This document shows, in pieces, positions 31,828 through 33,531 of a stretch of 64,000 bases of DNA. The stretch spans positions 372,001-436,000 of the forward strand of contig NZ_CALPDB010000001.1 in assembly GCF_943193155.1 (NCBI RefSeq). Reading direction: 5' to 3'. A program made the position numbers and the translations under genes. The notes beneath the pieces were generated by a model. It was not told the origin of the DNA, did not search any database, and saw only the letters and a list, made by a program, of their open reading frames with translations. Every line of letters starts with the position of its first letter. Positions within the stretch are counted from its first letter, which is position 1. The DNA comes from Veillonella intestinalis. Its GTDB lineage: Bacteria > Bacillota > Negativicutes > Veillonellales > Veillonellaceae.

Positions 31828-33012
31828 CTACTTACCTTTAAGGGCATCATATTGACCATTTACAACTTCCAATACTTGCACTTCCATTTTTGGATTGCGT
31901 TTTTCATCAAATACAAATTTACCAGTTACACCAATGAAATCTTTAAGATTGGCTAATGCATTTCTAAACTTTTCACGATCCGTAGTGCTACCAGAATCTT
32001 TTAATGCTTTTTCTACCATGTACATACCATCATAAGCTTGGGCTGCAAATTGATCTGGTTCCGTACCATATTTAGCTTTATAAGCGGCTCTAAAGTCACG
32101 AACTTTTTGATCATCTTTATTAGGGAACCAAGGTGTACCTACAATAGCCCCATCCGCAGCAGCGCCAGCACCTTTAATAAATACCGGTGTATTGAAGCCA
32201 TTAGAACCAATAACTTTTTGAGTCATACCCATTTCGCGCATTTTTTTAACAATTAAAATCCCTTCTTGGTACAAAGAAGCTACGATGACAATATCTGGAT
32301 TAGCTCGCTGAATTTTAGTTAATTGAGCTGAAAAATCTGTATCTTTATCTGCAAATGTTTCAGAATCGACAACTTGTACCCCTAAGGATTGTAAAGTCGC
32401 TTCTGCTGTCTTATTAACAGATACCATTTGGTCATTATTATTAGAATACATAATAGCAGCTGTTTTAAAACCAAGTTTTTCATGAGACTGTTTAATTGCT
32501 TCTGCTACAGCAATTGATTCAGGCACAGCATTTCTAAATGCATAATCGCCAATTTCTGTAATCCCTTCGGCTGTAGAAGTTGTAGTAAATACTACGGTTT
32601 TATTTTTATTGGCAATAGGTCCTGCCGCAAACATGTCACCAGATAGCATAGGACCAACAACGGCCACTACATTATCCTTATGAATTACTTTGTTCATAGC
32701 ATTAATTGCTTCATTCTTATCACCTTTTGTATCTTCCACTTGAAGTTTAATTTTAATGCTATTAGCATCTTTATTAATTTCTTCAACGGCTAACTCTGCC
32801 CCATTTTTTACAGATTCACCATAAGCAGCAGCCCCACCAGAAGTAACCGTCAGCAAAGCTACTTTTGCTTCATCACTACTACCAGAACCTCCGCTAGAGC
32901 TACCACAGCCAGCTACCCCAATTGCTAAGGCTGTCACTAAAGAAAGACCAATCATATTGCGCATCATACGCTTACTCATCCGCCCCATTTGTTTCATACC
33001 CATCATTTTCAT
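31828..33012 (-). CDS. livK: Branched-chain amino acid ABC transporter, substrate-binding lipoprotein LivK
   Basis: Periplasmic (here lipid-anchored) receptor of the transporter. The start MKMMGMKQMGRMSKR is at 33010-33012, behind GAGAGGA; the open frame further upstream belongs to the leader. A hydrophobic signal segment ends in the lipobox VAGC, with the lipid-bearing Cys near residue 36, followed by a Gly/Ser linker. The rest is a type I periplasmic binding fold (VALLTVTSGGAAAYGESVKNGAE onward). First gene of the liv operon, controlled by the T-box leader at 33135-33496. Confidence 0.95.
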   Translation of the reverse strand: MKMMGMKQMGRMSKRMMRNMIGLSLVTALAIGVAGCGSSSGGSGSSDEAKVALLTVTSGGAAAYGESVKNGAELAVEEINKDANSIKIKLQVEDTKGDKNEAINAMNKVIHKDNVVAVVGPMLSGDMFAAGPIANKNKTVVFTTTSTAEGITEIGDYAFRNAVPESIAVAEAIKQSHEKLGFKTAAIMYSNNNDQMVSVNKTAEATLQSLGVQVVDSETFADKDTDFSAQLTKIQRANPDIVIVASLYQEGILIVKKMREMGMTQKVIGSNGFNTPVFIKGAGAAADGAIVGTPWFPNKDDQKVRDFRAAYKAKYGTEPDQFAAQAYDGMYMVEKALKDSGSTTDREKFRNALANLKDFIGVTGKFVFDEKRNPKMEVQVLEVVNGQYDALKGK

Positions 33013-33097: not shown

Positions 33098-33142
33098 TTT
33101 AGTAAAAAAATATAGCCCCATTCTATTAAAACTTTTACTAAA
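33098..33142 (-). promoter_or_regulatory. Third hairpin in the livK leader
   Basis: TTTAGTAAAA (33098-33107) is the reverse complement of TTTTACTAAA (33133-33142), a 10-base stem with a 25-base loop. It overlaps the U-run of the second T-box terminator, so it could compete with release there. Function is speculative. Confidence 0.4.
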
Positions 33143-33240
33143 AAACGCTCCTACTTGCTAGTTGCAAATAGGGGCGTGAAAACGCGGTACCACCCTACAT
33201 TATACTTTAGTAACCAAAAATATAACTATTGAAGTTGGTT
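33135..33240 (-). promoter_or_regulatory. Second T-box antiterminator/terminator module in the livK leader (no Stem I)
   Basis: Contains a second T-box sequence AGGGTGGTACCGCG (33183-33196) and a following terminator (33140-33177: ACGCCCCTATTTGC against GCAAGTAGGAGCGT, then a T-run). A 26-base stretch here (33183-33208) is identical to that of the first module (33308-33333). Only about 55 bases separate it from the first terminator, too few for a Stem I, though AACCAA...TTGGTT may form a small Stem III-like helix. Confidence 0.85.
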
Positions 33241-33262
33241 TATGTAACTTGTACTCATAGAG

Positions 33263-33496
33263 AAAAAAATCGCCCCCATTCACAATTGTGAATAGGGGCG
33301 TTAAATACGCGGTACCACCCTACATTATACTTTGGTTATCACCCATAACGTGGGCTAGACGTCTTTTACTACCTGTCGCAAAAGAAACTCTCGAGTGAGT
33401 ATTTCATATCCGTGTGTATTGGCTCACACCAACCGCCAATTCTCTGTATCAGTGACGCATATCTTTATCTCGGTCATCGTTTGTATCTATGTTATG
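33263..33496 (-). promoter_or_regulatory. T-box leader of livKHMGF, probable tRNA-Leu sensor
   Basis: The minus strand carries a Stem I (about 33365-33480), the T-box AGGGTGGTACCGCG (33308-33321) and an excellent terminator (33263-33300; CGCCCC(T)ATTCACAATTGTGAAT(G)GGGGCG then seven Ts). In the Stem I specifier loop, GAAATACTCA follows the usual GAA...NNN-A pattern with CTC (Leu) as the specifier. The variable base of the antiterminator bulge (TGGT) matches discriminator A, as in tRNA-Leu. Uncharged tRNA-Leu should thus turn on the transporter. The specifier assignment is inferred from pattern, not a fold calculation. Confidence 0.88.
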
Positions 33497-33502
33497 AACG
33501 TT

Positions 33503-33531
33503 ATTATGCCTCATATAGACATTTTTGTCAA
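33503..33531 (-). promoter_or_regulatory. livK promoter
   Basis: TTGACA (33526-33531), 17-base spacer, CATAAT (33503-33508) on the minus strand, directly before the T-box Stem I and 43 bases after the end of the MBL hydrolase gene. Confidence 0.85.

Follow-up and report, generated by a model that had tools for sequence, protein, structure and literature searches.

The leader of a livKHMGF operon in Veillonella intestinalis carries one T-box Stem I followed by two antiterminator/terminator modules and is probably (roughly 60% by our estimate) a partially tandem, or "semi-tandem," leucine T-box, in which a single tRNA-Leu held by Stem I would be checked twice, with lower leak and a steeper response. 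The DNA analysed is a 64,000-nt window (GCF_943193155.1, contig NZ_CALPDB010000001.1, positions 372,001–436,000 of the forward strand), and window coordinates are used throughout. On the minus strand ahead of livKHMGF, a promoter is followed by a complete T-box and terminator; after a 54-nt linker comes a second T-box sequence, which has a terminator too (33208–33140). The parts are as follows:

33503..33531, minus strand: sigma-70-type promoter, TTGACA-17-CATAAT (11/12 consensus matches; congener L016 has the same hexamers at the same spacing)
33291..33486, minus strand: complete T-box leader with Stem I, Stem II/IIAB, and the first discriminator (RF00230, 102 bits, cut-off 93, model positions 1–219)
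33397..33399, minus strand: specifier codon CUC (Leu), aligned to the RF00230 specifier position
33293..33333, minus strand: first discriminator/antiterminator with purine segment AAAGUAUAAUG, helix A1 UAGGG/CCCUA, bulge UGGUACC, and helix A2 GCGU/ACGC (computed pairing, −8.3 kcal/mol without tRNA)
33263..33300, minus strand: first terminator and U-tract (hairpin 33300–33271, 13 bp, −24.5 kcal/mol)
33209..33262, minus strand: linker between the modules, without Stem I (z-score +1.0, folding no better than shuffles; ~46% identity to the congener)
33169..33208, minus strand: second discriminator/antiterminator with the purine segment as in module 1, a UGGUACC bulge, and helices A1 and A2 (RF00230 3' part, 27.7–28.5 bits; congener core 89% identical)
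33140..33177, minus strand: second terminator with a C-A mismatch and U-tract (hairpin 33177–33145, 13 pairs, one C-A mismatch, −18.7 kcal/mol; the congener has the mismatch too)
31828..33012, minus strand: livK-like branched-chain amino acid binding protein, first gene of livKHMGF (NF011933, E 4e-27, below the curated cut-off)

Genes downstream of the leader encode LivK-, LivH-, LivM-, LivG-, and LivF-like proteins, with matches below the NCBIfam equivalog cut-offs. An earlier note on this DNA had described two segments here, each with a T-box sequence and a strong terminator; both were found (−24.5 and −18.7 kcal/mol), and its anatomy of one Stem I serving two modules agrees with the covariance search and with the congener. 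The window contains exactly two copies of the motif AGGGTGGTACCGCG, even when two mismatches are allowed (33321–33308 and 33196–33183, minus strand), and two matches were seen in 0 of 100 shuffles. A chance repeat is ruled out by these shuffles and by the lack of the motif elsewhere in the window. The run identical between the modules is 27 bases long (AAAGTATAATGTAGGGTGGTACCGCGT) at an offset of 125 nt; the note had given the same offset and counted 26 bases. The same window also contains a second, canonical T-box (61246–61037, 119.5 bits) and a SAM riboswitch (8131–8031, 84.4 bits).

The first unit is a full-length RF00230 match above the cut-off, and a search of the whole genome returned 13 full-length T-boxes together with a single 3'-only match that corresponds to the second module (27.7 bits, model positions 160–216, E 2.4e-4). 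The genome encodes a tRNA-Leu(GAG) with A73-CCA that fits both the CUC specifier and the UGGU bulge of both modules, with A73 complementary to bulge position N. The specifier had been read as CTC in the earlier note, as a feature of the first module only, and the alignment bears this out, with CUC in module 1 and none for module 2. At the base of helix A2, both modules have C (33298 and 33174) at the position of the G-U wobble, where the other T-box in the window (61246–61037) has U. This conserved wobble has been proposed to be the steric sensor of the aminoacyl group (2020 review, PMC7583486).

The second module lacks a Stem I, because only model positions 121–219 could be aligned in 33100–33285 in a covariance search at a permissive threshold, which found no Stem I there. 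Such a search had been named in advance as a check for a degenerate Stem I between the modules, and that candidate is excluded in the window and in the congener. An antiterminator with a T-box bulge thus lies downstream of the first terminator, with no second Stem I or specifier, beyond a linker that is unstructured and unconserved. Antiterminator 2 and terminator 2 are mutually exclusive, as both use ACGCCCCUA at 33177–33169. Neither here nor in the congener does each unit have its own Stem I, as in a fully tandem T-box. A separate short transcript starting from a promoter of its own is a highly improbable account of module 2: a promoter-like site does lie at 33248–33219, but its 9/12 matches are at chance level and the congener linker has none, so that the candidate was rejected as not conserved.

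LivK of this type was found in two of the seven genomes of the genus searched, and both have the two-module leader. Between these two genomes, identity is 92% for Stem I-II, 95% for module 1, 46% for the linker, 89% for the module 2 core, and 59% for the rest of the leader. As the linker and the distal leader have drifted in the congener (G006) while the module 2 core has not, module 2 appears to be selectively kept, and judged by its sequence it is neither a chance repeat nor a decaying copy. The C-A mismatch of terminator 2 is present in both genomes. If module 2 were a fail-safe duplicate, its terminator would lower leak and its antiterminator would be carried along, unused by tRNA. That the modules share 27 identical bases in this genus is in keeping with this rather unlikely account, but conservation of the bulge and purines against a drifting linker is not, nor are the paired changes in helix A1 described below, and a second terminator acting unconditionally would leave the operon mostly off.

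Conservation was followed across the order in 61 genomes, which were searched by LivK homology and not by the repeat, and the leaders were then read. One Stem I with two modules was found in seven of the eight livK leaders read from a second family (f2), the eighth (L173) having a single T-box sequence 610 bases upstream. Pattern searches added four further f2 leaders, three before a livH-like start and one before livK. The comparison with relatives proposed in the earlier note therefore finds the second copy kept both in the congener and in a second family of the order. A genome of a third family (L171, f3) has a single-module leader, and the leaders read ahead of LivK in two other genera of the window's own family contained no recognisable T-box. 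About 100 bases before livK in L150, which has no T-box match, TTAGGGTG precedes CGCCCCTGTGAGG...CTTCATAGGGG, which may be what is left of a T-box terminator.

Read directly, specifiers in liv leaders are CUC, GUC, or AUC, with N = U in both modules; as those of relatives read GUC or AUC, liv leaders stay within the branched-chain amino acids. The second modules of f2 retain UGGU-ACC, and most have an upstream purine segment resembling GAGUGAUAAA / RAGUGAUAAA, where Veillonella has AAAGUAUAAUG. The liv leaders read are a subset of liv copies and the leader finder demanded the TGG and ACC of the bulge, so conservation of the bulge is partly built in. Every first module of f1 and f2 has T-A as the fifth pair of helix A1, whereas most f2 second modules have C-G there; in L172 the second pair is A-T where others have G-C, with the 3' arm of the terminator altered to match. 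The retained purines and bulge, together with these paired changes, thus make the second module resemble a functioning discriminator more than a spare terminator. Counting against the reading that we favour, one of the five A1 pairs is broken in five f2 second modules (L166, L167, L169, L170, and L172).

Within the genus, module 2 is close to module 1, including the AAGUAUAAUG segment that is typical of first modules across the order and at which f2 second modules differ. We infer that the duplication may have occurred separately in the two families, or that, in this genus, one copy may have overwritten the other. The recent duplication suggested in the earlier note can be at most part of the explanation: the layout is kept in the congener, and the second family has a diverged module 2 with paired changes.

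Under the preferred reading of one tRNA and two checkpoints, Stem I/II would read tRNA-Leu(GAG) once via the CUC specifier, and the nascent RNA would then meet two complete discriminator-terminator checkpoints in series. With uncharged tRNA-Leu, the ACCA end would pair with the UGGU of antiterminator 1 to allow readthrough by the polymerase, and the same tRNA, still tethered or re-captured by Stem I, would offer its 3' end to the near-identical second discriminator. With charged tRNA-Leu, polymerases leaking past terminator 1 would reach terminator 2. The outcome would be an operon for branched-chain amino acid uptake with a lower basal level and a steeper response, and serial checkpoints of this type follow a pseudo-cooperative logic (PMC9481103). 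Hand-over from platform 1 would need a very stable complex to release its tRNA, which counts against this reading. tRNA bound to Stem I alone dissociates at ~0.2 per s (PMC5951919), so the first complex need not be permanent. A cross-module antiterminator, formed from the 5' strand of module 1 and the 3' strand of module 2, is possible but weak, at −4.5 kcal/mol compared with about −8 kcal/mol for local pairing, and was set aside.

Use of one tRNA at both platforms is, we infer, the best of the options raised in the earlier note. Another of these was that the second platform senses uncharged tRNA ends without codon matching, acting as a separate sensor of any uncharged A73 tRNA and hence as a general starvation gate. 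A complete second discriminator that lacks a specifier fits this option, but the option appears improbable, because any uncharged A73 tRNA would switch the second platform. Moreover, Stem I is responsible for the initial capture of tRNA, in which the antiterminator takes no part (PMC5951919), so that binding to platform 2 should be weak and unspecific, and the two modules share N in all liv leaders read.

A further point against the one-tRNA reading is that, in this genus, terminator 1's 3' arm, once freed, can pair with terminator 2 instead. On this strand-exchange account, tRNA at antiterminator 1 would release this arm (GUGAAUGGGGGCG), which would disarm terminator 2 by pairing with its 5' arm (CGCCCCUAUUUGC), and one decision would set both terminators. 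The exchange duplex has 13 uninterrupted pairs at −20.2 kcal/mol, compared with −16.5 kcal/mol for terminator 2's own arms, the C-A mismatch of which is kept in both congeners. When antiterminator 1 is held, the exchange helix is predicted to form during chain growth, ahead of the emergence of terminator 2's 3' arm. Over 77 loci, exchange pairing is at −12.6 kcal/mol, against a weaker −10.2 kcal/mol between shuffled loci. Nonetheless, we consider such strand exchange unlikely. Terminator 2 wins at full length, duplication alone predicts the complementarity, and the UGGU bulge of module 2 would not need to be kept. Among the f2 leaders listed, the exchange helix falls far short of terminator 2 in stability (e.g., −32.9 kcal/mol for terminator 2 versus −21.1), so the exchange is at most a feature of this genus; as a general mechanism it was rejected, not being kept in relatives. 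To our knowledge, a relay in which one ligand-binding event sets two terminators by strand exchange has not been described for riboswitches.

Pairs of T-box sequences spaced 106–136 nt apart were sought in GTDB genomes by a scan that gave at least 118 stretches. A hairpin and U-tract follow both copies in at least 65 loci (scan stretches plus one order-level locus), and among the matches listed, many of the others are repeats of an unrelated kind from GC-rich genomes. Contexts include polar amino acid ABC transporters (Lactobacillales), livK-like genes (Peptococcaceae-type), DAHP synthase, trp genes, lysA, and others. Among the matches listed, the two modules carry the same base at bulge position N at 45 of 65 loci, where 25 would be expected, a comparison that ignores phylogenetic relatedness. 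The base differs in the other 20, mostly in Lactobacillales (e.g., L028, L047, and L019), so the second platform may be relaxed there and may fail to match the tRNA's discriminator base; this counts against the one-tRNA reading. Three genomes from one other family of the class (L139, L140, and L141; 1498–1700) have three T-box sequences, spaced 63 and 66 nt apart, behind one Stem I. Their specifier reads UUC (Phe) and the gene behind looks like DAHP synthase; the first two T-box sequences have no obvious terminator hairpin, yet a U-run follows each.

T-boxes with duplicated terminator-antiterminator elements were reportedly described by Vitreschak et al. in 2008. The earlier note had called a second copy without Stem I worth testing; such a copy is not new, as "partially tandem T-boxes" are already an acknowledged class (PMC7583486), and this leader is therefore a further member of it, with comparative support for a functional second module. 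It shares with that class a single specifier domain with two or more antiterminator/terminator elements after it, and we can name no structural difference. The livKHMGF instance and its conservation in the order may be absent from print. The mechanism of partially tandem T-boxes was called open in the 2020 review (PMC7583486), and the leader offers a compact test case, with one specifier, two near-identical discriminators, natural variants in the branched-chain amino acid specifier, and the single-module relative L171 as a control. As the layout is common and precedes several kinds of operon in the census, a mechanistic answer would apply widely.

Like the transcriptional T-box of RF00230, the leader has a Stem I with distal AGAGA/GGUUGGUG motifs, a specifier, Stem II/IIAB, a T-box bulge, and a terminator; it differs in its extra 3' discriminator-terminator unit, a compact Stem III region, and, in both modules, a G-C pair where helix A2 usually has G-U at its base. 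Fully tandem T-boxes (trp, thrS, and ilv operons; PMC12452182) and pseudo-cooperative tandem riboswitches (PMC9481103) likewise place two terminators in series under the same amino acid, but each of their units has its own sensor domain, whereas here one sensor must serve two platforms.
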